The notes under the pieces: generated by a model | The model's input: the letters and a program-made list of their open reading frames with translations, nothing else | The model's database searches: none | Told to the model about the DNA's origin: nothing | IMG/VR virus record: IMGVR_UViG_3300048032_000919 | Coordinates: 1 to 40,896 of that record | Origin: a virus | Length of the DNA: 40,896 nt | Reading direction: 5' to 3' (one strand) | Part shown: positions 19,565 through 40,642 of the stretch, piece after piece | Position numbering within the stretch: the first letter of the stretch is position 1 | Layout of the letters: each line of letters starts with the position of its first letter | Made by a program: the position numbers and the translations under genes

Positions 19565-20365
19565 TCAAGTCAAGAAATATTTTAAAATTTTACAAGAAAC
19601 AATAAAAAAAGGGTTAAGAAGGTTTTCTTTGTTGTAGTTCAAGCACTGATTTGTACCTTCAGTGAGGACTATAGCCCCACTTTCTTCGGCTATTATTTGT
19701 GGCGCGCAAGTATCCCATTCCATTGTTGGGCCAAACCTTGGATAAATGTCAGCTTTACCTTCAGCAACTAAACAGAATTTTAATGAACTACCGATATTTA
19801 AGGTCTCAATCTCATAATCCTTTTTTAAATTATTAATAAATTCCTTCGTCTCTTCGTTCAAATGGGATTTACTTGCAACTACTTTAATTGGTTCGCCTTG
19901 CGGGTTATAAGAATATTTGGCATAAATTGGTTTGCCGTTTTTAAAAGCACCCCGATCTTTTATAGCGAAGTATTGGTCTTGCTTCTTGGGGCAAGCTACA
20001 TAGCCGAATACAGGCTCTGACCCTTTACATAGGGCGATATTGATACAGAAGTCATCCCCACCCTTTACGAACTCTTTTGTGCCGTCTATGGGGTCTATAA
20101 GCCAATAATAATCCCATTTAGCGCGGTCTTTATATTTAATCTCTTTATTTTCTTCAGATATAATATTTGAAACATCCGTGTTCGCCGCCAAAAATTCGCA
20201 AATTCTTTTGTTTGAATGAAGGTCAGCTTCTGTTAATGGGCTCTTGTCATCTTTTTGTAAAGTTTCAAAGCCGCGCTCTTGTATTTCGCAAACTTCTTTA
20301 GAAAGTTCGGCGCCAAAAATTAATAGCTTATCAATAAATTCTTTATTTATATTTGGATAATGCAT
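19565..20365 (-). CDS. cysQ: CysQ-like 3'(2'),5'-bisphosphate nucleotidase
   Basis: A 266-residue member of the Li-sensitive inositol-monophosphatase superfamily. SPLTEAD (42-48), SEEN (70-73), the CysQ-type DPIDGTKEF (91-99) and EWDTCAPQIIAEESGA near the C-terminus give the complete Mg-binding site. CysQ hydrolyses PAP, the inhibitory by-product of PAPS-dependent sulfotransfer, to AMP. It is the last gene of the glycan operon, which also encodes sulfotransferases. The start overlaps the reductase gene by 23 bases. Confidence 0.85.
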   Translation of the reverse strand: MHYPNINKEFIDKLLIFGAELSKEVCEIQERGFETLQKDDKSPLTEADLHSNKRICEFLAANTDVSNIISEENKEIKYKDRAKWDYYWLIDPIDGTKEFVKGGDDFCINIALCKGSEPVFGYVACPKKQDQYFAIKDRGAFKNGKPIYAKYSYNPQGEPIKVVASKSHLNEETKEFINNLKKDYEIETLNIGSSLKFCLVAEGKADIYPRFGPTMEWDTCAPQIIAEESGAIVLTEGTNQCLNYNKENLLNPFFIVSCKILKYFLT

Positions 20366-21191
20366 CTTCTAGCGCTTCTTGCGCAGTTCTTATTTTTATA
20401 TATTGTTCTGTCTTGGCCGTATCCAGCACACAATTTGATCGTGGGGCGACTGTCTCTTTGCTAAGAGATTCTAAATCATCAAAAAACTTAAAATCTTTAT
20501 CTGATAAATTATATTTTTTTATTAATTCAACCACGTCTTCTGTAGTAACACTTCCTTTATTTGTGATATTATAAATTCCATGTGGTACTTTTTGCTCAAT
20601 TAACTCCATTACATATTTAGCAAAATCTGCGCGATGAGATAAAGAATTTTCAGCATCCAACAAAGTGTCATAAGATAATAATTTAGTTAAGTAATTTCTT
20701 GGAGATGCATATTCATCGAATGGAATACGTAATCTAAAGATATAACTATTTGGATGATTTTGCAATACAACTTTCTCTGCAAGAGCTTTTGTTCCGCTAT
20801 AAAAACTACCATTTTGGAAATCAAAATTGGGGGCATCTTTTTCAGTAAAATGTTTTTCGTACCCTCCATAAATACAACCCGAAGATATTTGAGTGAATTC
20901 GTATTTCTTTTCACAACATAGTTGAGCAAGCATTAGAGGCAACAAAACATTACCTTCTATGCAATCAGCTTTCGCTAATTCACAAGCGTCAACATTTGGC
21001 TTGCCGATATACCCTGCACAATTTATAATATGCAAGTCATCACCTAAAATATAAAGATTATACTTTAATTCTTTAAGATCTGTATAATCAACATCAGATC
21101 TACTCCAAGCGACATGAGGTAAATCGCGTGACTTTAATTCTTTTATTATAGCTTCTGCTATGTATCCGTTTTTTCCTAATATAATGTACAT
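20343..21191 (-). CDS. RmlD-like NAD(P)-dependent sugar-nucleotide reductase
   Basis: A 282-residue short-chain dehydrogenase. LGKNGYIAEAI (5-15) is a Rossmann dinucleotide loop, ISSGCIYGG holds the active-site Ser/Thr region and FYSGTKALAEK gives YxxxK. It most resembles dTDP-4-dehydrorhamnose reductase or the epimerase/reductase enzymes of viral rhamnose pathways. With RmlB in the same operon it could make a dTDP- or UDP-6-deoxyhexose. It lies 3 bases downstream of the sulfotransferase gene. Confidence 0.75.
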   Translation of the reverse strand: MYIILGKNGYIAEAIIKELKSRDLPHVAWSRSDVDYTDLKELKYNLYILGDDLHIINCAGYIGKPNVDACELAKADCIEGNVLLPLMLAQLCCEKKYEFTQISSGCIYGGYEKHFTEKDAPNFDFQNGSFYSGTKALAEKVVLQNHPNSYIFRLRIPFDEYASPRNYLTKLLSYDTLLDAENSLSHRADFAKYVMELIEQKVPHGIYNITNKGSVTTEDVVELIKKYNLSDKDFKFFDDLESLSKETVAPRSNCVLDTAKTEQYIKIRTAQEALEDALSKYK

Positions 21192-21194
21192 AAA

Positions 21195-21806
21195 TTATGT
21201 TCCAAATTCGTATCCGAAATACTCGATGTCCTGCTCATACTTTTTCTCAACAATCTCGCGGATCTCATCCTCGTAGTATTCAGTATAATGTTTATGTTTT
21301 GACTTGTTTTTGTGTGGAAGTTGTTGCCGAGGTACCCCGATTTTGTCGCAGATAAGATCGAAGTCTTCTTGAAGTTTTTCGAATCTGCCTATGAAATCAA
21401 CCAAGCAATTATCTGATGCGTCATATATGAATTTATATTGTTCTAAGTTATGTTTTTGCCTCAGAGTTGTAGTGTTATTTTCTGATTGATTAATTAAATC
21501 GCCTAATTTAAGTTTTACCCAGTCGTTGAAATTTAAAGATTCATTCAAATATGTTTTTTCCCAAAAATATTCTGATAAACATTTTGAAAAAGGATTTCGT
21601 ACAAATGTAAATTTAAAATAATCATTAAAAACTTGATCGCCTATTTTTTCTTGTAATTCACAAGCTTTTAAATGTTGCAGCACAACACCCTTCTCGATAC
21701 CCCATAATTTTTTTTTATCTCCATATCCACCTAAACATTTTTCGATTGATTCCCCTGCATTTTTAGGAATATGAACAAAAATCATTTTTTTTGTATGATC
21801 AATCAT
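21195..21806 (-). CDS. Carbohydrate sulfotransferase (Sulfotransfer_2-like)
   Basis: A 203-residue apparently intact sulfotransferase. FVHIPKNAGESI (10-21) is the 5'-phosphosulfate-binding loop; FTFVRNPFSKCLSEYF (about 67-82) is the 3'-phosphate-binding motif. It ends with DIEYFGYEFGT, a tail also found in the remnant at 24933-25028. Such enzymes move sulfate from PAPS to a sugar hydroxyl. The start overlaps the cytidylyltransferase gene by 8 bases. Confidence 0.85.
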   Translation of the reverse strand: MIDHTKKMIFVHIPKNAGESIEKCLGGYGDKKKLWGIEKGVVLQHLKACELQEKIGDQVFNDYFKFTFVRNPFSKCLSEYFWEKTYLNESLNFNDWVKLKLGDLINQSENNTTTLRQKHNLEQYKFIYDASDNCLVDFIGRFEKLQEDFDLICDKIGVPRQQLPHKNKSKHKHYTEYYEDEIREIVEKKYEQDIEYFGYEFGT

Positions 21807-22248
21807 TTATAACATCTGGATTTTGTTTTATTGTTTGTTTAGTTATTAAGTCTTTCAGTCGAGTGGTTGACCACTCATGTGATCTTGTAGTATATATTAC
21901 ACGGGGAGGAAGATCATCTCCTGTAAAACTTTTGCCAATATAATCTTCTCCAAGTATGCGAATGTCGGGTTTCCAGAATTTAATTAAATCCACAAGCTCT
22001 TCTTCGGTTTGATACATATATACTTCGTCTATGTATTTTATAGCCATTAATGCTTTGTAGCGTTCGTAGTATGGTATAACGGGTTTATATTTTGTAAACC
22101 TTGTGGCACTTGGATCTAGCTGCAAAAAAATCAAAAAACGATCACAATGCCTTTTCGCCTCCTCAAAGGTATAGATGTACCCTGGATGCAAAAGATCAAA
22201 GTTACCTGCCGTAAAACCTACTATTTCTTTGTTTCTTGAATTTTCCAT
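21799..22248 (-). CDS. Cytidylyltransferase-like nucleotidyltransferase
   Basis: A 149-residue HxGH nucleotidyltransferase: GFTAGNFDLLHPGYIYTF (11-28) matches the GxFDxxHxGH loop with the last His replaced by Tyr, and RSHEWSTTRLKDLI is the C-terminal loop. Family members make CDP-glycerol, CDP-ethanolamine or ADP/CDP-sugars. The His-to-Tyr change at the second His may affect catalysis or specificity. It overlaps the glycosyltransferase gene by 28 bases. Confidence 0.75.
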   Translation of the reverse strand: MENSRNKEIVGFTAGNFDLLHPGYIYTFEEAKRHCDRFLIFLQLDPSATRFTKYKPVIPYYERYKALMAIKYIDEVYMYQTEEELVDLIKFWKPDIRILGEDYIGKSFTGDDLPPRVIYTTRSHEWSTTRLKDLITKQTIKQNPDVIND

Positions 22249-22961
22249 ATTGTATAATTTTCTATGATTTTATTTTGTATTCTGTTCGTTTTTACAAACA
22301 TAACCTCTAAGGGATTTAACGTAGCACCGTAATATCTTTCATTGAAACATATATCTCCATGTTTTTCTGAATTATATTGAGATAACTGCAATGGTTTTAT
22401 TTTAAATCCGACTGCCAAAAGCACCCTGCTCATTCTGATCTCGTGTTGAATGATAACTTCAGACTTGTCTTTGCCTATAGAGTCAAAAATACCTTTATTA
22501 AGAAGAACCTCTAAACCAGAGAAATCTGTAGCAAAACAATAACTTTGAATATGCAAGTTTGGCTGAGAGCAAAGCCCTCGAAAATTCCAAGTTGAGCCAA
22601 CCAGTTTGACTTTATCATTAATACATGAATTCAATAAATCAACCCAATTCAAAGAGTTTGGAATATAATCGGGAAGAAAAGGTCCGCGACATGTATCGTT
22701 TATGAAAATAAAACGATCAAATTGATCCAGTTTGACACTTTCTAAAGATTGCTGGTATCCCCCAAAATCGTAACCCTTATTGTGCCCCTTGATAATAGAT
22801 ATGTTTGATTGACAAGGAATTTGCGTACCTCCTGTAGAGCTATTAATTACAAAATTGAATTGGTGGTCAGAAGAGTTTGTTAACCCTAATTGTAAAAAAA
22901 AATCTAGATTACGCTTAGAAGACTCGGTCTCAAAGTGAACAAATGTAATTAATGTTTTCAA
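22221..22961 (-). CDS. Glycosyltransferase related to rhamnan synthesis protein RgpF
   Basis: A 246-residue protein with a GT-A-like layout: MKTLITFVHFETESSKRNLD at the start, NKGYDFGGY (about 81-89), then FIFINDTCRGPFLP (about 104-117). The GYDxGxY and INDxxxGP phrases are typical of RgpF-like rhamnosyltransferases. A rhamnose acceptor would fit the RmlB and RmlD-like genes nearby. It overlaps rmlB by 4 bases. Confidence 0.7.
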   Translation of the reverse strand: MKTLITFVHFETESSKRNLDFFLQLGLTNSSDHQFNFVINSSTGGTQIPCQSNISIIKGHNKGYDFGGYQQSLESVKLDQFDRFIFINDTCRGPFLPDYIPNSLNWVDLLNSCINDKVKLVGSTWNFRGLCSQPNLHIQSYCFATDFSGLEVLLNKGIFDSIGKDKSEVIIQHEIRMSRVLLAVGFKIKPLQLSQYNSEKHGDICFNERYYGATLNPLEVMFVKTNRIQNKIIENYTIWKIQETKK

Positions 22962-23890
22962 ATTAACTCTTTCAATCCTTCCTTAAAATTTATGCTGGGA
23001 AACCAATTTAATTCCCTTTGAATTTTAGTATTATCAATTGCATAACGCCAATCGTGACCTAATCGGTCTTTGACGAATTCTATTTGACTTTCATCTTTAT
23101 CTAGAAGTTTTAAGATTGTTTTAACAATATCAATGTTACGAACTTCATTTTTGCCACCAATATTATAAACTTCGCCAATTTTTCCACCATGCAATACCGC
23201 ATCGATGCCAGAGCAATGATCTGAGACATGAATCCAGTCACGAATATTTCTGCCATCACCATAAACAGGAAGTTTTTTGTCTGCCTTGGCATTTTTAATC
23301 ATTGATGGAATTAATTTTTCTTCGTGTTGATTTGGGCCATAATTGTTTGAGCAACGAGTGATCAAAATAGGGTAATTGAAAGTTTCATAAAAACTACGAC
23401 ACAATAAATCCGCACTTGCTTTACTTGCGGAATAGGGGCTGTTAGCTTGTATCGGAGTATCTTCAGTAAAAGGATCGTCTTCTTCTGTTAAGCTACCGTA
23501 TACCTCATCTGTAGAGACTTGAAGGTATCTCTCGATGCTTGGACAATCATGTAGCAATGTCAATAATGAATGCGTTCCATTGATGTTGGTTTTAATAAAA
23601 GGATTTGAATTGTTTATGCTATTATCTACATGACTTTCAGCGGCAAAATTAACAATATAATTTATATTATTTTTTTGAACTAATCTTTTTATGCTTTTTG
23701 TACTGTTGATATCATATAATGATAAATAGTATCTGCCTGATCGATTTATATCTTTGCTAATGTTATCATAATTAGCCGCATAAGTTTTTACGTCAACATT
23801 GAAGATTTTATAATCATACTTATCAAATATATACTTGATAAAATTACTTCCAATGAAGCCTAGCCCGCCTGTGACTAATATGCTTTTCAT
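22958..23890 (-). CDS. rmlB: dTDP-glucose 4,6-dehydratase
   Basis: A 310-residue extended SDR. VTGGLGFIGSNF (6-17) is the NAD loop; FAAESHVDNSI and QVSTDEVYGSL carry the substrate and catalytic Thr-Asp-Glu residues; YSASKASADLL contains YxxxK; RCSNNYGPNQHEEKLIP is characteristic of RmlB. It converts dTDP-glucose to the 4-keto-6-deoxy intermediate. It stops at KEGLKELI, somewhat short of typical RmlB, where the 4-base overlap with the next gene falls. Confidence 0.9.
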   Translation of the reverse strand: MKSILVTGGLGFIGSNFIKYIFDKYDYKIFNVDVKTYAANYDNISKDINRSGRYYLSLYDINSTKSIKRLVQKNNINYIVNFAAESHVDNSINNSNPFIKTNINGTHSLLTLLHDCPSIERYLQVSTDEVYGSLTEEDDPFTEDTPIQANSPYSASKASADLLCRSFYETFNYPILITRCSNNYGPNQHEEKLIPSMIKNAKADKKLPVYGDGRNIRDWIHVSDHCSGIDAVLHGGKIGEVYNIGGKNEVRNIDIVKTILKLLDKDESQIEFVKDRLGHDWRYAIDNTKIQRELNWFPSINFKEGLKELI

Positions 23891-23892
23891 CT

Positions 23893-24096
23893 TTAAGAAC
23901 CTTGACGATCATATGGGTTGCGAACAAATGAAAATACATAATAATCTAAGTGATCATTTAAGAAATGAGAGAAGCCACGCTTTCTTAAAACTTTTGCTGG
24001 TATATCTGGATCAGCATCTCGCAAAAACCTTTCGACAGATGTGCCTGCAGCTTTAGGTATATGCAGGAATATGCATTTATGTTTATGGCTGATCAT
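23893..24096 (-). pseudogene. Truncated sulfotransferase (N-terminal third)
   Basis: A 67-codon frame with both PAPS-contact motifs, FLHIPKAAGTSVERFL and FSFVRNPYDR, that ends right after the second motif, 2 bases before rmlB. Its start MISHKHK matches that of the remnant at 24933-25028. It lacks the substrate-binding C-terminal two thirds, so it is most likely a decayed paralogue of the 21195 gene. A functional mini-protein is not excluded. Confidence 0.7.
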
Positions 24097-24116
24097 TATT
24101 CATTTCTCCATTTTCT

Positions 24117-24929
24117 TTAGTAAAAATAATCATCTAGAATTTTGGCGGGATGAAAGATATTACAGTCTTCATTTTGTATAAAATTTAAAGAATAACCAAG
24201 TTTATCTTGACCTATTCCGTTGAACATAGAATGCCTGCAGTCTTCTTCGTTAAGTTCAATAAGAGAATAATCAAAATTCTTGCAAATATATGGCAACCAT
24301 AATTCATGATGACTAGTTTTATCCTCTTCTATTATAGATTGTATAACTTGAGTTGCTAATTTTTTACTAGATCTATGTAAATATAAGTGACAAATCGCAT
24401 TATGAATAACATGACTTAAATGTCCGATTCTCCAGCCAATATTACCTTCTATATCGGAATCATGATTGAAGCACCAAAAAGGAAGCTCAGAAATTGATGG
24501 AAATACAGGGTCTCTAACTCCGCGTTTACTAATTAAATCTACATTTAGATTTTTGTATTTTTCAAAAAATTTATTCCAATCTTTGGCATAAACATCATCC
24601 TCCATATACCACATATATTCAAATGAACTATTCGCAAACCAATCATATGCAGAGAGCTTCGCGCAATTATCAGGCCATCGCCCATTAAAATTTTTTATTT
24701 TTTGACCATATTTATCAAAATAAACTCGATTATCAACCAGTTTTACGTCGACTTGATTTATGATGTTTTTGAGTAAGTCTAAAGAACTCTCATATCTAGT
24801 ATCAATCCCCAAAGTAATTTTATACCCAACTGAATCAATCAAAGACTTTATAATCCTTTTCTTTGTTGGGTTAACATTTGATACAGACATATAAATAGCT
24901 GTATTTTGGGTATTAGAGTGATCGTTCAT
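24117..24929 (-). CDS. Putative glycosyltransferase (GT-A fold)
   Basis: A 270-residue protein with an N-terminal nucleotide-sugar-type fold (TAIYMSVSNVNPTKKRIIKS) and FEYMWYMEDDVYAKDW near residue 105, whose EDDVY fits the DxD metal motif. GNIGWRIGHLSHVIHNAICH follows in the acceptor half. No CAZy family can be given from reading alone. It is in the operon between two sulfotransferase remnants. Confidence 0.6.
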   Translation of the reverse strand: MNDHSNTQNTAIYMSVSNVNPTKKRIIKSLIDSVGYKITLGIDTRYESSLDLLKNIINQVDVKLVDNRVYFDKYGQKIKNFNGRWPDNCAKLSAYDWFANSSFEYMWYMEDDVYAKDWNKFFEKYKNLNVDLISKRGVRDPVFPSISELPFWCFNHDSDIEGNIGWRIGHLSHVIHNAICHLYLHRSSKKLATQVIQSIIEEDKTSHHELWLPYICKNFDYSLIELNEEDCRHSMFNGIGQDKLGYSLNFIQNEDCNIFHPAKILDDYFY

Positions 24930-24932
24930 TTA

Positions 24933-25028
24933 TTATTCTCCAAATTTATATCCGAAATGGTCAATGTCCTTTGCGCCACCGGTTCTTGGTATATGTATAA
25001 AAATAAATTTATGTTTATGACTGATCAT
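24933..25028 (-). pseudogene. Internally deleted sulfotransferase remnant
   Basis: A 31-codon frame joins a sulfotransferase N-terminus (MISHKHKFIFIHIPRTGG) directly to the family's last residues (DIDHFGYKFGE, compare DIEYFGYEFGT at 21195). The central 170 or so residues are gone and the frame is kept. This is the footprint of an in-frame deletion between paralogues, or possibly of selection for a mini-protein. It overlaps the end of the upstream gene. Confidence 0.7.
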
Positions 25029-25788
25029 CGATATTTGGGATGCCGGTGAATCTAAACATGTTATTGGATTTGCAAAACCATCTGACGCATGCTTCTTGAT
25101 GTTTGGTTCTAAAGTTTGAATCAACCCATTTGGGTAAAATTTCATCAAGTTCGGAATGAAAACTTTCAATTAGCCATTTGATGCTATCAACTGACCCAGC
25201 AATAAAATTATCGCAACCCACAATATTGTATATCGAATAAATATATTTTAATTGATTAAACCTGCTTAAAACTATAATTTGTTTTATGAAATCTAAATGA
25301 GTGCGCGGAGTAAAGTTTTCTGTATGAACAGGGTTTCTGCAAAAACTATCTAGACCTTCAGTTAAAATGTCGAACCTAGTATTTATAGCAAATTTATAAT
25401 TATGATCTTCTGGAATTTGACAAATGTTTTGGTGCATTCCGCTCCACATGTATTTCCAGCCAATTGTTGGACACATGGTATTACCTATTTTTCCATCGAT
25501 ATTACCGATCAAATCAACCGAAGATTCATCTAGTATTAACAAGCTTTTTATGCGAGAACGGAGGGATTCGTCAAAATAATCATAAATATCAGATTCCTTG
25601 ATTTTATCAAACTCAAAACCAGATGTATCGCGCCAAGACTTATTAGCTTCAGAAACATTCCATGTTTGTATATACAAATCAAAGTCAATCATAGTTGAAC
25701 ACGCCATTAGGAAGTGGTTTAGGTTGCCGCTATTCAGGCTCGCCCTTGTGTGGCCACGGATTAAAAATGCTACTTTAGGTTTGGTCAT
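25015..25788 (-). CDS. Putative glycosyltransferase-like protein
   Basis: A 257-residue protein with VAFLIRGHTRASLNSGNLNH at the N-terminus, FDLYIQTWNVSEANKSWRD (about 36-54) and KFAINTRFDILTEGL (about 131-145). The pattern RGHxR...DxYIxTW...TRxD is typical of poorly described glycan-synthesis proteins in bacteria and large viruses. A role in glycan transfer is inferred mainly from the operon. It is coupled to the upstream sulfotransferase by ATGA. Confidence 0.55.
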   Translation of the reverse strand: MTKPKVAFLIRGHTRASLNSGNLNHFLMACSTMIDFDLYIQTWNVSEANKSWRDTSGFEFDKIKESDIYDYFDESLRSRIKSLLILDESSVDLIGNIDGKIGNTMCPTIGWKYMWSGMHQNICQIPEDHNYKFAINTRFDILTEGLDSFCRNPVHTENFTPRTHLDFIKQIIVLSRFNQLKYIYSIYNIVGCDNFIAGSVDSIKWLIESFHSELDEILPKWVDSNFRTKHQEACVRWFCKSNNMFRFTGIPNIDDQS

Positions 25789-26411
25789 ATTACCTTTTTG
25801 AAAACTTCTGGGGTTAATTTAATTTTTTGCTGTATTTCAAGATCCTCCTTGAAATATTCATGAAACCAATCCAATGATTCCTGATTCAGATCTTCGAAAT
25901 AATTTCGCCGTTTTTTACTGGCATTAACTTTTTTAAGTTGAACCCCTTTATCTGGAATTTGCAAAAAGTCTAAAAGACTAACAAGTGAAGATTGTAAGTC
26001 ATTTTGATAGTTAATGATAATAATGTTTTGATGATCACCAGTAAACCATCGAGATTGTGGTAAATAATGAACATCCCATGTCATATATGTATGTAGTATA
26101 TCAGTACGATTATCGCGTATCAAAGAAACAAAATCATTGACAGTTAATTCTTGGTATTTTTTTAAAAAAGAAGGCGAACGCGGCCATTTTAAAGAACCAT
26201 TTTTCCAGTATGCAAACATTGAATTAAATCTGTCTGTCGGATCTCGAAAAATAATTATAGGATTTTCTGCATCCCCACATAAAAAAGAATGTTCTTTTTT
26301 TGGTTTTATATCTTTTTCCTGTAAAGAAAAATATCCAGAATAATTGTTAAGTAAACATGCAAAAAAAGCAGTTCCACCAGTTTTTGTTGTATGTATTAAA
26401 TCATATTTCAT
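25785..26411 (-). CDS. Divergent sulfotransferase
   Basis: A 208-residue protein with LIHTTKTGGTAFFACLL (5-21) as 5'-phosphosulfate loop and IIIFRDPTDRFNSMFAYW (about 52-69) as 3'-phosphate motif, the R-D-P-x-x-R form. The C-terminus holds LSSLLDFLQIPDKGVQLKKV followed by NASKKRR, as in sulfotransferase tails. It is a second intact sulfotransferase, only distantly similar to the 21195 gene, suggesting a different acceptor. Confidence 0.75.
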   Translation of the reverse strand: MKYDLIHTTKTGGTAFFACLLNNYSGYFSLQEKDIKPKKEHSFLCGDAENPIIIFRDPTDRFNSMFAYWKNGSLKWPRSPSFLKKYQELTVNDFVSLIRDNRTDILHTYMTWDVHYLPQSRWFTGDHQNIIIINYQNDLQSSLVSLLDFLQIPDKGVQLKKVNASKKRRNYFEDLNQESLDWFHEYFKEDLEIQQKIKLTPEVFKKVI

Positions 26412-26420
26412 TTCCCTGCT

Positions 26421-27413
26421 TTATTTTAATTTAGTTATTACTTGTTTAATTGCCATCCACATATCTAAATACTTATAACTCGCCAGTCTACCAAGGAAAA
26501 CAACATTATTTTCTGATAGAATTGCTTGTTTGTATTTGTCATATGTAGCCCGTCCTTCACCAAAGTTCTTGGGATATATTGGATCATTAGTTTCATCGTG
26601 TTCTTCTGGGTAATCGCGCGTATATATTGTATGATCTAAGTCAGTTTCATTCAAGAAAACTGCATTATCTCCTGTGCGATTAAATTTCTTATCATTGCAT
26701 TCGTTTATAACACTGCCTTTTTCAAAAGAAAAATCATCATTTCTTGCGCCCCGAAAGTGTTCGAATCGTAAAGATCTATAGGGTAATTTACCAAAAGAAA
26801 AATCGAAAAACTCATCAGGCTTACCAGTATAAATCATTTTGTCACATTTAAGCTTTTTGTACTCTTCTTTAGACGCTCCAAGATTTACTTTGATGCCATC
26901 AAGCATACTATTAAACATTTCAGTATAACCATTTACTGGTATCCCTTGGTAATCTTCAGCAAAATAACGCTCGTCATAATTATCCCTTTTATTGGGAACT
27001 CTTCCTGATATAGATTTTGGAAGCTCTTCCCATGGTATTCCCCAATGCCTTTCAGAATACTGTTTAAAGATAAGGTCTTGAATTTCTTTAGGGTTTAAAT
27101 CTCTACCTATTTGTTCGGAGGTTTTTTTGTTGTAAGGAATTGATATTAATCCATACTTTGTATTTGCGCGAACTTTATGTTTATAATTATTGAATTTAGA
27201 GTATCTATTTACAAAATCCCACACCTCTTTATCTGGCGTGTGAAAAATGTGAGCACCGTACATATGGACAGTAACTCCATCTTGCTTTTTGTCAAAACAG
27301 TTACCTGCGATATGATCGCGCATTTCAAAAATTTCTACATCATGCCCTTGTTCTTTAAGCAAGATTGCAGAAGTGACTCCAGCTAAACCGCATCCTATGA
27401 TATTAATTTTCAT
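26421..27413 (-). CDS. glf: UDP-galactopyranose mutase
   Basis: A 330-residue flavoenzyme: IIGCGLAGVTSAILLKEQG (4-22) binds FAD, then GNCFDKKQDGVTVHMYGAHI with the His loop, ERHWGIPWEELPKSISGRVP (about 130-149) and YTGKPDEFFDF. It converts UDP-galactopyranose to UDP-galactofuranose, the donor for Galf residues absent from animals. It is slightly shorter than many bacterial homologues. It indicates that the phage-directed glycan contains Galf. Confidence 0.92.
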   Translation of the reverse strand: MKINIIGCGLAGVTSAILLKEQGHDVEIFEMRDHIAGNCFDKKQDGVTVHMYGAHIFHTPDKEVWDFVNRYSKFNNYKHKVRANTKYGLISIPYNKKTSEQIGRDLNPKEIQDLIFKQYSERHWGIPWEELPKSISGRVPNKRDNYDERYFAEDYQGIPVNGYTEMFNSMLDGIKVNLGASKEEYKKLKCDKMIYTGKPDEFFDFSFGKLPYRSLRFEHFRGARNDDFSFEKGSVINECNDKKFNRTGDNAVFLNETDLDHTIYTRDYPEEHDETNDPIYPKNFGEGRATYDKYKQAILSENNVVFLGRLASYKYLDMWMAIKQVITKLK

Positions 27414-27416
27414 TAT

Positions 27417-28196
27417 TTATTTTTCCTTCCAAATTTGATTGATAAAATAGCCATTATTAATTTCGCGAAGCGCAAGTTCATTAATTGAAGAATACTTGAG
27501 GTTAAAGAAGTCTCTATTTTTCCTTATGAAGGCAGTCTCACTTCGGGAAAAAAATTTTCTAGAACCCGCTCCATGATGATAGACAATGTCACCATAAGAT
27601 GAGAAAAAAACAGGGTGAACATCAATGCTAGACTTTTTAGTCTTATAAATTTTAAAACATTTGATATTTTTTTTACTAATATCTTGGTATAAAAGCCCAC
27701 CAGTATCATTTATAGGATTAACGATTGGAAAATTCATATCAACGCCATGCCAAGTTAGATTTTTTTTCTTCCAAAAACCTACTGTAGAAAAAGTAAAACA
27801 CGGATGAATACAACAGTGTCCATTATCATTTTCAGGACGGCTAACTCCAGCCAAATCATAACATTTAAGTTTGGGTTCTATATACTCATTGACATTGCCT
27901 ATTGGAAAGGCATCGCTGTCAAGAAATATTACCACATCATCATCTTTAGTGTTCTTATCTTCCGCAACAATTTTAAATAAATTATCTAGTTTCGTAGCGT
28001 GATCGTATGAACCACTAATACCTTCGATGTTGTCATGATTTTTCAAAAAATTAAATTTGTGTTTATGAGGTGAGGTATCCATATACTCACTAAAAAAACA
28101 CCAAACTTTATAGTCTGATGTGAATTTTTCAATATGTTTTAATTGAATATCCACCCATTTATCTGATGAGAAATGAACTGTTATGTAATGTATCAT
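27417..28196 (-). CDS. Putative glycosyltransferase with DSD motif
   Basis: A 259-residue GT-A-like protein with MIHYITVHFSSDKWVDIQLK at the start and DDVVIFLDSDAFPIGNVNEY (about 85-104), giving the DxD motif. Later Cys/His-rich HCCIHPCFTFSTVGFW and YHHGAGSRKF may form the acceptor side. No family assignment is safe. It overlaps the GT90 gene by 4 bases and lies 3 bases from glf. Confidence 0.65.
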   Translation of the reverse strand: MIHYITVHFSSDKWVDIQLKHIEKFTSDYKVWCFFSEYMDTSPHKHKFNFLKNHDNIEGISGSYDHATKLDNLFKIVAEDKNTKDDDVVIFLDSDAFPIGNVNEYIEPKLKCYDLAGVSRPENDNGHCCIHPCFTFSTVGFWKKKNLTWHGVDMNFPIVNPINDTGGLLYQDISKKNIKCFKIYKTKKSSIDVHPVFFSSYGDIVYHHGAGSRKFFSRSETAFIRKNRDFFNLKYSSINELALREINNGYFINQIWKEK

Positions 28197-29110
28197 GCAA
28201 TATTATTTAATAGATTTTTCCAGATTTTATTAATGTTTGGTATCGAAAAGGTTGAGCGAGAGAATTTGAGAGCATTCTCTATGATTTGTTTACACTCTTG
28301 TTCATTAGATTGTGCCCATTTTATTTTATGAATAATGTCAGAAAAATCATATGCTACTGGAACATAATGAACCCACGGTTTAAGGCTTTTTTCGAAAAAA
28401 CATTTATGATAATGGCACTGCAAGAATAATAGCCTGCCACTTAATAACAAATATTTTAATCTACCACTGAAACCAAAAGCTTGAGTATCAATTATATACT
28501 TATAGTTTTTAAAAGTATCAAATAGGCTCATTCTGTGATCTTGGTTTTCGCCGCCGACATGATATGCATCAATATGCTCTGGATATTTCTTAGTCAATTC
28601 ACAAAGATTTTTTCTACTATCTATTCTTGCCGCACCTCTCCAACAGATTTTAGGTATTGGGTTATCGCTTAATTCTAAATTCAAAAGATTTTCATACATT
28701 TCGGCATGATTAAAATCTAGCCAAGTAGAGAAATTAAAATCAGGACAGCAAATTAAATCTTTATGATGCTGTTTAACTTTAAATGTATCTGGATAGCACT
28801 CTGACCCTGGATCGATGTAGCATTGAGAAAAAACAGGCTCTGGGCTGGATTCAACCATAGCATGCCCAGGGTTATTGTCTGTTGTGTATAATCTTATATA
28901 ATCAAAATCATTAAATATAACATCTTGATCTGCCCGCTTAATTTGAGAAATAAAAGTACCAGGTCTGTGATCACCACCATAAGTGTGGAACTCAAGTTTA
29001 CCATCTTTTTTTCTAAAAACTAATCTAGTGTTTCTAAATTTTTGACCCCATGAAGTTTCGGGGCATTCTGAATCATTATCAAATATTTCTGGATTACCTA
29101 TCCTTTTCAT
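28193..29110 (-). CDS. GT90/CAP10-like glycosyltransferase
   Basis: A 305-residue protein whose C-terminal half matches the CAP10/GT90 domain: PKICWRGAARIDSRKNLCEL (about 152-171), YKYIIDTQAFGFSGRLKYLL (about 204-223), LLFLQCHYHKCFFEKSLKPW (about 227-246) and HYVPVAYDFSDI. GT90 enzymes transfer xylose or glucose and are best known from fungal capsule synthesis and eukaryotic POGLUTs. First full gene of the glycan operon. It follows a 12-codon leader ORF with an ATGA junction. Confidence 0.8.
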   Translation of the reverse strand: MKRIGNPEIFDNDSECPETSWGQKFRNTRLVFRKKDGKLEFHTYGGDHRPGTFISQIKRADQDVIFNDFDYIRLYTTDNNPGHAMVESSPEPVFSQCYIDPGSECYPDTFKVKQHHKDLICCPDFNFSTWLDFNHAEMYENLLNLELSDNPIPKICWRGAARIDSRKNLCELTKKYPEHIDAYHVGGENQDHRMSLFDTFKNYKYIIDTQAFGFSGRLKYLLLSGRLLFLQCHYHKCFFEKSLKPWVHYVPVAYDFSDIIHKIKWAQSNEQECKQIIENALKFSRSTFSIPNINKIWKNLLNNIA

Positions 29111-35992: not shown

Positions 35993-36019
35993 GTTTTTTT
36001 TCTTCAAAAATGATTTTGG

Positions 36020-36024
36020 TTGTA
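36020..36024 (+). promoter_or_regulatory. TTGTA variant of the GTGTA box
   Basis: TTGTA, exactly 9 bases, ATG at 36034. One-base variant of the repeated element. Confidence 0.35.
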
Positions 36025-36033
36025 ATATATTTC

Positions 36034-36840
36034 ATGACTAAAAGAAAAATTCTTATTATGGGTCTTCCAGGTTCAGGCAAAACAACACTTGCTGAGATAC
36101 TGGTTAGTAAACTTAACGCCGCATGGTTTAATGCCGACGCAGTCAGGCAGGATATATATTCAGAATTAGGATTCTCGCCAGAAGACAGATTGGCGCATGC
36201 CACAAGAATGGGAAAACTTTGCGATTGGGCTAAGTTGGGTGGAGGATATGTTATCGCCGACTTCGTATGTCCAACGCAAGAGACAAGGCAAGCTTTTGGC
36301 GCTGACTTTGTAGTATGGGTAGATAGAATCATGGAGGGTAGATACGAAGATACCAATAAAATGTTTGAGCGCCCAATGAATTATGATGTTAGATTAACTA
36401 ACGGCACAGCAGATGAATGGGCAGAAAAAGTCTTAGAAAAATTAAACGAGACAGAAAAGTGGGACAATCAAGCTCCAACCGCGCTTCTTATAGGTAGATA
36501 TCAACCTTTTCATATTGGACATAAAACTTTAGTGGCAGAAGCAATCAAAAGAACTGGGCAATGCTGTATAGCGCTAAGAGATGTTGGTGGTATTGATGAA
36601 AAAAATCCATATGATTTCGAAAAAGTAAAAGCGGAGATCCATTCTGCATGCATCGAGTTTGGTAACAAGATTAAGGTTGTTGAGTTACCGAATATTATGG
36701 ATGTATTTTATGGCAGAGGAGTTGGCTATAATATTGAACAACTTGAGTTAAGTAAAGAACTACAAGAAGTATCCGCTACAAAAATTAGAGCTGGCGAAAT
36801 TGGCCAAGACGGAAAACCTTTAGGCAAGCGCCCTGAATAA
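36034..36840 (+). CDS. APS-kinase-like / HxGH nucleotidyltransferase fusion
   Basis: A 268-residue two-domain protein. Residues 1-140 resemble adenylylsulfate kinase: P-loop GLPGSGKTT (10-18), NADAVRQDI, GFSPEDRLAHATRMG (46-60) and VIADFVCPTQETR. Residues 148-268 form an HxGH nucleotidyltransferase: GRYQPFHIGHK (154-164) and SATKIRAGE. Similar fusions are common in marine phages with unproven function. A PAPS supply role fits the sulfotransferases, but NMN-type chemistry is equally possible for the C-domain. The start at MTKRKILIMG is chosen over 36010. Confidence 0.75.
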   Translation: MTKRKILIMGLPGSGKTTLAEILVSKLNAAWFNADAVRQDIYSELGFSPEDRLAHATRMGKLCDWAKLGGGYVIADFVCPTQETRQAFGADFVVWVDRIMEGRYEDTNKMFERPMNYDVRLTNGTADEWAEKVLEKLNETEKWDNQAPTALLIGRYQPFHIGHKTLVAEAIKRTGQCCIALRDVGGIDEKNPYDFEKVKAEIHSACIEFGNKIKVVELPNIMDVFYGRGVGYNIEQLELSKELQEVSATKIRAGEIGQDGKPLGKRPE

Positions 36841-36875: not shown

Positions 36876-36905
36876 GCCCCCTAGAAATAGGGGGCTTCTT
36901 TGTTT
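36876..36905 (+). terminator. Probable bidirectional terminator with GAAA loop
   Basis: GCCCCCTA-GAAA-TAGGGGGC followed by TTCTTTGTTT on the plus strand. On the minus strand it sits just past the DUF1501 stop. It serves two convergent genes. Confidence 0.75.
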
Positions 36906-38184
36906 AAGAGAGTATATCTAAGATTGGTTCACCTTTGTGGGCAATTTGAAATGGTCGCCCGGACGGAGAGTAATGAACATCATTAAGAGACAAACCAAGC
37001 GCGTATGCTATTGTTGCGTTCAAATCTTCAGGTTTAACTGGGTTTTGTTCGACCTCCATACCTTTATCATCGCTTTGGCCGTATATCGTTCCGCCTTTAA
37101 TGGCTCCTCCCGCAAAAAATGCCGAGAAAGCTTTTGGCCAATGATCTCTACCATCTCTTGGATTAATCTTTGGGGTTCTGCCGAATTCAGACGTTAAAAC
37201 AACAAGAGTTTCATCAAGCAAGCCGCGCATTTCTAAATCAAATAGTAATGCACCTAACGCTTTATCGATATCGGCGCAATTCTCGGCTACTCGCATAAAG
37301 TTATTGTCATGAGTATCCCATCCTCCACGAGTCACTTCAACATAGCGAACTTTATTCTCGATCAATCTTCTTGCAAGCAAGCATCCCTGACCAAAATTAC
37401 TACTACCATAAAGCTCATTCATCGCTTCTGGTTCAGCAGATATATCAAACGCTTTTAGGTCTTCACTCTGCATTAATTTAACTGCATCTTTATATAAATC
37501 AGTATAAGCACGAATTTGTTTTTGATTATATTGCTCACTAAATACTGCATTTAATTGTTCTGCAGCTTTTATTCTATCATTAAATTGTGCGCTGTCTAAA
37601 TAGTCAGCCATTGAACTGTTAGCTAATCCTGCTTTAGGATTTCTAAGAGGTAAAGCTCCGTAGCGAGATTCTAAGAAGCCCGCTCCGCCTCCTCCACCAC
37701 CGATCTTAACATTCGCAGGGATGGTTCTGTTGATCGAGCCTGAAAGCTTTGCAACCCAACTACCAAAAGTGGGGTGTACGATTGTGCCGCGCTTCTGGTA
37801 GCTTGTATGCATCAAATAACTCGCTTGTTCATGAGCGCCTTGATTACTGGTTACTGAACGAATAATGGCGGCATTATGCATATGTCTTGCGACTGTTGGT
37901 AAATTCTCGGAAAGAAATACATCATCAACGCTTGTTTGTATAGCTTCAACCGGACCTTGAACATCGGGGCTTTGAGGTTTGGGATCAAGAGTGTCTAGAT
38001 GCGACATTGCTCCAGCCATATTTAAATAAATAACATGCCGTGCTTTTGCGGGGCGAGTGCCTGGAGTGAGGGCATATGCATTATCATGGATGTAAGATCC
38101 AACTAGCGGCATCAAGCCTACCCCCAAGTAAGATTTGGCGGCTCTAGCAATAAATTCTCTTCTGTTTAATTCGTTTGTATTCAT
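36904..38184 (-). CDS. Tat-exported DUF1501 protein
   Basis: A 426-residue DUF1501 protein, a family in the alkaline-phosphatase/sulfatase-like clan. It has a twin-arginine leader NRREFIARAAKSYLGVGLMP (6-25), HVIYLNMAGAMSHLDTLDPK (50-69), GGWDTHDNNF (about 287-296), VLTSEFGRTPKINPRDGRDH (about 327-346) and FFAGGAIKGGTIYG. The metal-binding Asp/His residues look complete. The family is abundant in Planctomycetes and Verrucomicrobia, usually secreted, and of unclear substrate. Its ATG lies 10 bases after the tmRNA 3' end, so it was probably acquired with, or reads through from, that gene. Confidence 0.85.
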   Translation of the reverse strand: MNTNELNRREFIARAAKSYLGVGLMPLVGSYIHDNAYALTPGTRPAKARHVIYLNMAGAMSHLDTLDPKPQSPDVQGPVEAIQTSVDDVFLSENLPTVARHMHNAAIIRSVTSNQGAHEQASYLMHTSYQKRGTIVHPTFGSWVAKLSGSINRTIPANVKIGGGGGGAGFLESRYGALPLRNPKAGLANSSMADYLDSAQFNDRIKAAEQLNAVFSEQYNQKQIRAYTDLYKDAVKLMQSEDLKAFDISAEPEAMNELYGSSNFGQGCLLARRLIENKVRYVEVTRGGWDTHDNNFMRVAENCADIDKALGALLFDLEMRGLLDETLVVLTSEFGRTPKINPRDGRDHWPKAFSAFFAGGAIKGGTIYGQSDDKGMEVEQNPVKPEDLNATIAYALGLSLNDVHYSPSGRPFQIAHKGEPILDILS

Positions 38185-38194
38185 AATGAAATTT

Positions 38195-38558
38195 TGGACG
38201 TGAGCGGAGTCGAACCGCTGTGTTTAAACCTTCAAGAATATACATCTACAAGTTTAGTTAATTTTTTTTAAAGTTATGATATTAACATCCAACTTCTTGT
38301 TTCAATTATTTACAGTTTGTGGTACAAGAAAACTTTTTCTGTTTTGCAGATTGATGACCCCGTAATCTTTTTATCTGCGTCAAAAGTTACGAGGTGACAG
38401 ACTTTATGCTGCCATTGCGACTTTGGAAGTCTTGCGAAAACCAAAAGTCTTAACACGTGCTTTATTGCCATGTAAACTTTTGCACCTTTTTAAGGAGCCA
38501 GATGCAACTCCTACTTGCAGTATACTAATCCAATTTAAATCGAATCCAGTACACGCCC
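38195..38558 (-). ncRNA. ssrA: Transfer-messenger RNA (tmRNA)
   Basis: A complete one-piece tmRNA of 364 bases. The 5' end GGGCGTG pairs with CACGTCC at the 3' end; GGATTCGA (38546-38539 region) is the D-loop signature, and AGCGG-TTCGACT-CCGCT is the T arm. The tag frame runs from about 38469 to TAA at 38404-38406: it probably starts GNKARVK and ends KVAMAA, 21 residues and strongly basic. A pseudoknot CCTCGTAA/TTACGGGG follows the stop. CCA is not encoded. tmRNA rescues stalled ribosomes and tags products for proteolysis. Confidence 0.93.
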
Positions 38559-38610: not shown

Positions 38611-39735
38611 TTAATCTTGTCCACCTATAATTTCATCTTGATCATCTTGGGTAACTATCTTTGTTTGTCTAGCTGCCTCGTATAATGCATTGTAATTATT
38701 GGTGACTTTTTGGTATCTTCCGCGAGTGATCTTGCGAAGAGCTTCTTCAGAGATTCTGCTTGGACCATCATCGCTAAACAACTTCAATATAGCAATATCT
38801 TTATCGCTAACATCAACTTCCCATTTGATTTGGTAACCAAAATCAGGGATATGGGCCGAAAGTTCATTTGCAAGCGCTCTAGGTTGTTCGGGGCTCTTGG
38901 ACTCGGTCCAAGTAAAAACAGGCACAACTCCATGCCATGTCTCGTGGAATGCCCCGACATTTATCTGTTGCTCAACCACAGAATTATCTATTTTTGAGGG
39001 GTTTAAAACATCAAATAAATTATTATAAGCCAATGGAAAACCAAAATCATGCTCCTCATAGCAATAAACATGTAAGTATTTAAATAAATTAAACGCACTC
39101 CAAACTCCATGGTCTGCATTTTTGAGGACAAGCCTTTTTTGCGCCCCAGAATCTAACTCTTTGAAGTTTTCATAAAATCGGTCAGCAAAATCGCAATAAG
39201 AATCGTGATCTTGTTTGTCTGGCTGTGAATTTAAATGTAAATGTATAGGCGCCGAAATATTTTCCTGTGTGCCAATTTCATCAAGAAACCAAGAATAGAA
39301 ATTGATTTCTTTGATTGATTTTTCGACAACCCCCTCATCGTCGTCAATAAGTTTGCAGAATTTATCGGGCTGCAGAGAAAGGGAGACTCCTTTTGTGATA
39401 GAAGTTCTCCCAATCTCTTTGATAGCTTCAAAAATTTCACTTTTCTGAGGCAAATCATGCACCGACAAATCAAAAGAAGGATCAGATAGAATCCCGAAGA
39501 TCGAGGTATTTAACCTGTAATGATCAATGTTACTGTCACGGCAAAAGTCTATAATCTTAACGGTTAAATTAAGATTATGTAGTATTTCATCTTTTAGCTT
39601 TCTTCTAGCTTCTTGATCCCCCTTCTCGGAGGAAAGTTCAGCATAAGCTTTACGAGTAATCCCAACAAAAGAATTTGATTGATCCTCTTGCTGTAGGATT
39701 TTAGAAACGCAGACTAATCCGTACTTAGTATTCAT
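38611..39735 (-). CDS. UvdE paralogue without metal ligands (pseudoenzyme)
   Basis: A 374-residue protein colinear with the UvdE at 7991-8998 (GLVCVSKIL, SNIDHYRLNTSIFGILSD, APIHLHLN, PVFTWTES). Most metal-site residues differ: Q122 for H123, Y147 for H148, K205 for E204, N238 for D237, F241 for H240, T275 for H278, L288 for H290; only H167 and E306 remain. A 55-residue C-terminal extension, rich in charged residues, is new. Nuclease activity is unlikely; a damage-binding, regulatory or structural role is possible. Confidence 0.8.
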   Translation of the reverse strand: MNTKYGLVCVSKILQQEDQSNSFVGITRKAYAELSSEKGDQEARRKLKDEILHNLNLTVKIIDFCRDSNIDHYRLNTSIFGILSDPSFDLSVHDLPQKSEIFEAIKEIGRTSITKGVSLSLQPDKFCKLIDDDEGVVEKSIKEINFYSWFLDEIGTQENISAPIHLHLNSQPDKQDHDSYCDFADRFYENFKELDSGAQKRLVLKNADHGVWSAFNLFKYLHVYCYEEHDFGFPLAYNNLFDVLNPSKIDNSVVEQQINVGAFHETWHGVVPVFTWTESKSPEQPRALANELSAHIPDFGYQIKWEVDVSDKDIAILKLFSDDGPSRISEEALRKITRGRYQKVTNNYNALYEAARQTKIVTQDDQDEIIGGQD

Positions 39736-40102: not shown

Positions 40103-40642
40103 TTATCTGTATTCCTTTCTTAATAATCTCCATCTGTCTGAATCGATTGGTTTGCTACCATTATCTATAGCATACAACATTTCTATGACTTCGTCAAGAT
40201 TATTATAAATAAATTTATGAGGCAACATTCCTAGCATCCAAAGGGGAGTCTTTGCTTTGCCGCCTTCCATACTTATAAATACAGGTTTTTTTTCTCTTAC
40301 CGCAGTAACAATTTCTTCGGCACTTCCCCAACTTGCAACATCAGGAACTAAATGCGCGACAATAAAATCACTACGATCCACAAGATTCAAATCATACGCC
40401 CGAACTGTTTTCATTTTTTCGGTTACTCGATCATATTGTTTTGTTTTCATCCATGTTTCCATTTCTTGGCGCGAAGCTTCATCTTCTTCAACATCCTTCA
40501 TGAATGGTTTTTCGTATGGATTAAAGCATAAAATATTTAGGGGTGCAAGTTTTTCAGTAACTTCTTTGCGCCAATCTCTGCCGCTAAGATACTGCATGTG
40601 CCCGACTAAATATGTTCTAGTCTTGTATAATAAATTTGACAT
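40103..40642 (-). CDS. Nucleoside 2-deoxyribosyltransferase-like protein
   Basis: A 179-residue protein with a flavodoxin-like nucleoside-deoxyribosyltransferase pattern: TYLVGHMQYLSGRDWRKEVT (10-29), ILCFNPYEKPFM, then DLNLVDRSDFIVAHLVPDVA followed by SWGSAEEIVTA, where the Asp and the GSAEEI Glu match the active-site layout. Such enzymes swap bases on deoxyribonucleosides or hydrolyse nucleotides. The start follows a strong promoter with a 7-base gap. Confidence 0.8.
   Translation of the reverse strand: MSNLLYKTRTYLVGHMQYLSGRDWRKEVTEKLAPLNILCFNPYEKPFMKDVEEDEASRQEMETWMKTKQYDRVTEKMKTVRAYDLNLVDRSDFIVAHLVPDVASWGSAEEIVTAVREKKPVFISMEGGKAKTPLWMLGMLPHKFIYNNLDEVIEMLYAIDNGSKPIDSDRWRLLRKEYR

Follow-up and report, generated by a model that had tools for sequence, protein, structure and literature searches.

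UV endonucleases of the UvdE/UvsE family (PF03851, TIGR00629) are known from solved Thermus and Sulfolobus structures (2j6v, 3tc3 and 4gle), and a phage-borne family of them is collected in PHROG 8420, with members in the Bacillus, Vibrio and Dickeya phages SP-15, R16F and JA29, respectively. We know of no description of a non-catalytic UvdE, and the literature that we searched held no pseudo-UvdE. The 40,896-base record of an uncultured virus studied here, the whole of which we refer to as the window, encodes two homologues of this family, named A and B (Table 1). By its sequence, B is an undescribed variant of the known UvdE family, and the comparisons below give good support to its being a conserved pseudonuclease, whose loss of catalytic residues has been maintained under purifying selection. 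A similar case is found in Sulfolobus, where TFS4 occurs beside TFS1 and where, likewise, a duplicate of an active factor has had its original activity changed or lost and has been retained alongside (PMC5715097).

BLASTP aligns residues 1-316 of B with residues 1-324 of A at 34% identity (E 1e-59), in agreement with the preliminary description, which had reported a continuous alignment of about 310 residues; over this length B is homologous to UvdE/UvsE in general, and it would have the same barrel. Scores of 71.4 bits for B and 121.9 bits for A against the Pfam UvdE model (cut-off 24) make B a member of the sequence family, both proteins match PHROG 8420 (B with 58 bits, A with 142 bits), and both match the solved UVDE structures alike. 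The equivalog cut-off of TIGR00629 (124 bits) is missed by B (70) but also by A (95), so that this score does not separate the two. The scaffold motifs that B has in common with UvdE/UvsE are HYRL, N176, TW and P228, and the phrases HYRL and PVFxW, previously said to be kept, are found at residues 72-75 and, as PVFTW, 272-276. On the other hand, B departs from UvdE/UvsE in the replacement of the metal ligands and of the glutamine probe, in its more acidic character and in about 50 extra residues at the C-terminus (residues 320-374, approximately), the new tail pointed out earlier, which A does not have. AlphaFold predicts B with no more than modest confidence (pLDDT 63), which is higher over the first 200 residues, and the C-terminal third of the model is not reliable; the best PDB matches of this model are nonetheless all UVDEs, led by SacUVDE with 6-4PP DNA (E 1.8e-7), and its best named viral matches are UV endonucleases as well.

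Table 1. Features of the window discussed in the text, with positions, strands and supporting evidence.
Feature	Position	Strand	Evidence and remarks
A, intact UvdE, 335 aa	7991-8998	-	ORF, Pfam UvdE, ligand table (8/8 invariant residues present)
Run of sugar-nucleotide/glycan genes	19565-29110	-	By eye
P-loop kinase (APS-kinase-like) fused to cytidylyltransferase-like domain	36010-36840	+	Strand opposite to neighbours
DUF1501 protein, full length	36904-38184	-	373 bits
tmRNA gene, directly downstream of B	38192-38558	-	Rfam RF00023, 102 bits; missed by ARAGORN
B, ligand-less UvdE paralogue (putative pseudonuclease), 374 aa	38611-39735	-	ORF, Pfam UvdE, ligand table, dN/dS, fold search
c0, small DUF736-like protein, 83 aa	39735-39986	-	Pfam DUF736, 22.4 bits, barely above cut-off; synteny; junction
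Deoxyribosyltransferase-like gene	40103-40642		

A scan of viral contigs places B on 19 contigs including the window, divided into subfamily B1, with the window and seven relatives at 71-89% identity, and subfamily B2, with eleven contigs at about 30% identity. We compared 13 of these proteins (eight B1 and five B2) with 25 genuine UvdEs (10 A-type, 8 from other phages and 7 from bacterial and archaeal plasmids, among them the enzyme of Thermus thermophilus, which provides the site numbering). Eight sites are invariant in all 25 (H101, H143, E175, D200, H203, H231, H244 and E269), and we take them to be the metal ligands of the UVDE structures. Every one of them is also retained in the seven annotated phage UvdEs that we examined. 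Seven are altered in the B protein of the window (H101Q, E175K, D200N, H203F, H231T, H244L and E269D) and H143 is retained; the earlier count of seven changed site residues out of nine was thus right in substance. The 13 aligned B proteins keep between none and two of the eight, as opposed to 8/8 in the genuine enzymes: H143 is present in all eight B1 and H244 in three of them as well, the five B2 have 0/8, and position 175 is K or T throughout. From this we infer that B has lost its nuclease activity. Cleavage of nucleic acid through a rearranged metal site or by some other mechanism could draw on the histidines still present in B1 and on further fixed H, D and E residues of B, but it strikes us as highly improbable given the loss of all eight residues in B2 and the fate of E175, a position whose E175A mutant is found, together with K229 mutants, among the Thermus entries of the PDB, a sign that these sites were picked for mechanistic study.

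Chance, sequencing error and a decaying pseudogene are ruled out by the ligand-less homologues on 18 other contigs, by their intact reading frames and by a dN/dS of B of about 0.03-0.1 (for pairs with unsaturated dS), which denotes strong purifying selection. The old active site itself is also constrained rather than drifting, in that 7/8 former ligand sites are invariant among the eight B1 sequences (six with an identical replacement, one, H143, retained), as opposed to 50% for the sites overall (Fisher p 0.035). Residues that are specific to B and fixed in both of its subfamilies include K125, G210, W212, L217-K219, H222, N238 and W305. Because B lacks the metal-binding residues needed for cutting and is nevertheless old and tightly conserved, this second UvdE copy almost certainly has another job. 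The preliminary description, which had taken the gene to be intact and its loss of catalytic residues to be maintained, therefore holds as regards the pseudoenzyme, while the particular jobs that it proposed (lesion sensing, dimer partner, inhibitor) fare worse, as set out below.

In the phylogenetic tree, A and B form separate clades within one phage group, set apart from other UvdEs at 100/100; support for the B clade is 98/96, and 97/88 once the ligand columns are removed. A rival topology that joins A with B1 survives testing (p-AU 0.127), so that the ligands may have been lost twice. A single duplication followed by a single loss appears favoured, with two losses as a possible course of events. 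The phages that carry A and B are uncultured and probably marine. A tblastn search with B against 50,697 phage records returned one match only, itself an intact UvdE, and a pattern-based search of GTDB genome contigs, which may miss distant relatives, found none.

The idea that B is a lesion-sensing UvdE without the ability to cut, which would bind UV photoproducts and mark or protect them, agrees with the intact scaffold and with the 6-4PP DNA in the top fold match. It bears, however, on a pair of positions, 104 and 105, of which we take Gln104 to be one of the two lesion-probing residues in UVDE. This glutamine is a lysine in 13/13 aligned B copies, and the pair as a whole reads K-F in B1, where an aromatic residue is still present (F126 at Thermus Y105), but K-Q or K-V in B2. 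B is moreover more acidic, with a net charge of -13 to -22 compared with -4 to -13 for A, a value that also exceeds in acidity nearly all other UvdEs, and its bound metals are presumably gone. DNA binding by B seems weakened as a proposition by these features, and we regard a role in sensing lesions as quite unlikely.

A and B are encoded together on seven contigs (the window, G001, G003, G007, G009, G011 and G014), as might be expected if B were devoted to A, either as its partner in a heterodimer or as an inhibitor or decoy. Wherever both occur, they are roughly 20 kb or more apart, and between B1 and B2 phages the A proteins are mostly 69-82% identical, whereas the B proteins share just 28-30%. 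A therefore does not track B, and the absence of joint divergence argues against an obligate complex of the two. Known UvdEs are, to our knowledge, monomers. We accordingly consider service to A very unlikely for B. A appears either to have been exchanged between lineages or to evolve far more slowly than B; for the window and the phage of L030, synonymous divergence is lower in A (pS 0.39) than in B (0.80) or in any of the nine shared genes that were compared, which suggests that A was swapped between lineages. Contig G008 carries A and c0, and no B was found within its 194.5 kb.

The most consistent association of B is with the adjacent gene for c0, a gene absent from the preliminary description, which immediately precedes B in the same orientation in 13/13 loci checked, B1 and B2 alike. 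The flanks beyond c0 and B differ between the two subfamilies, upstream as well as downstream, so that the link between c0 and B has outlasted rearrangement. In the window, the stop codon of c0 overlaps the start codon of B as TAATG, and the two genes are apparently translationally coupled. In the protein, a variable linker joins a conserved core of about 60 residues to an acidic tail with a hydrophobic end (EEDLI in the window); to the eye, this tail resembles SSB-type or clamp-binding tails, and a fold search with c0 gave no match. B is dispensable for c0: two members of this phage group have c0 but not B, and so do other phages, in which c0 stands behind a sigma factor gene that we labelled gp55-like by eye.

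Other genes around B are less constant. The tmRNA gene adjoins B in all B1 phages and was detected in 11 of the 12 related contigs searched; its tag in the window, by translation, is GNKARVKTFGFRKTSKVAMAA, which is unusually basic, and the tags vary among relatives (e.g., GNKNRVRALGFKNRLAAKRFGFKGRKLALAA and AESSQRVVDLDSIELGLEMAA). Since B2 phages have this gene a long way from B, and since it also occurs in members in which no B was found, we do not favour it as a functional partner. It is probably separate from B in function. The DUF1501 protein, which starts with an RREF motif like those of Tat signals, occurs only in the window and in two close relatives (the copies of the window and of G001 are 96% identical) and looks like host-derived cargo; being beside B in 3/13 loci only, it was rejected as a partner. 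A link to defence was likewise discarded, the lone PADLOC match, to UzuA, being weak (15.5 bits) and taken as chance. Farther away, the glycan gene run includes an NDP-sugar dehydratase, a UDP-galactopyranose mutase, a CysQ-like phosphatase and a sulfotransferase-like protein, and the fused kinase stands between this run and the DUF1501 gene.

Taken together, we propose that B goes back to an ancient duplication of UvdE within a single large-phage lineage, that the loss of its metal centre would have ended DNA cutting by the UvdE mechanism, and that B was then retained as a repurposed, non-catalytic TIM barrel. It may act with c0 in a binding or adaptor role, probably as part of the DNA or nucleotide metabolism of the phage, and its contact surfaces would be the altered pocket and the new extension at the C-terminus. 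That B is such a repurposed barrel working with c0 we hold to be about an even proposition; homology, conserved ligand loss, selection and synteny are observed directly, and a physical partnership of the two and a role in DNA metabolism are conjectured. The main rival to an adaptor acting with c0 is that B has become a different enzyme, in which the fixed polar residues Q122, K125, K128, H167, K205, N206, N238, D242 and D308 would form a new, metal-independent active site at the mouth of the barrel. TIM barrels often switch chemistry, the old active-site positions are fixed in B1 and mostly polar or charged, and there are neighbours with a bearing on nucleotide metabolism, namely the deoxyribosyltransferase-like gene, a dUTPase-like gene (c6, identified by eye) and a dCMP deaminase beside B2. 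Yet the pocket differs between B1 and B2, with K or T at 175, F or N at 203 and T or F/I at 231, respectively, and C or M at 269 in B2. One conserved new site is thus not evident, nor is a single ligand shared by B1 and B2 obvious, and no family model assigns B another activity. We therefore see a new enzyme as unlikely, although with a real chance of being correct.

Returning to the non-catalytic barrel associated with c0, its fullest form would be a novel role for the UvdE fold: a DNA-repair TIM barrel that, once duplicated, lost its metal centre and was remodelled into a non-nuclease, in which pocket and tail are both new and whose partner is a small, acidic-tailed protein widespread in phages. 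This we put forward tentatively, as somewhat doubtful in its entirety. A conserved pseudonuclease that shares its phage with an intact copy offers a clean natural comparison of the UvdE scaffold without metals, and B provides a first way of approaching c0, which several phage groups have. In addition, annotation pipelines would label B a UV endonuclease, and the repair capacity of these phages would thereby be overstated.
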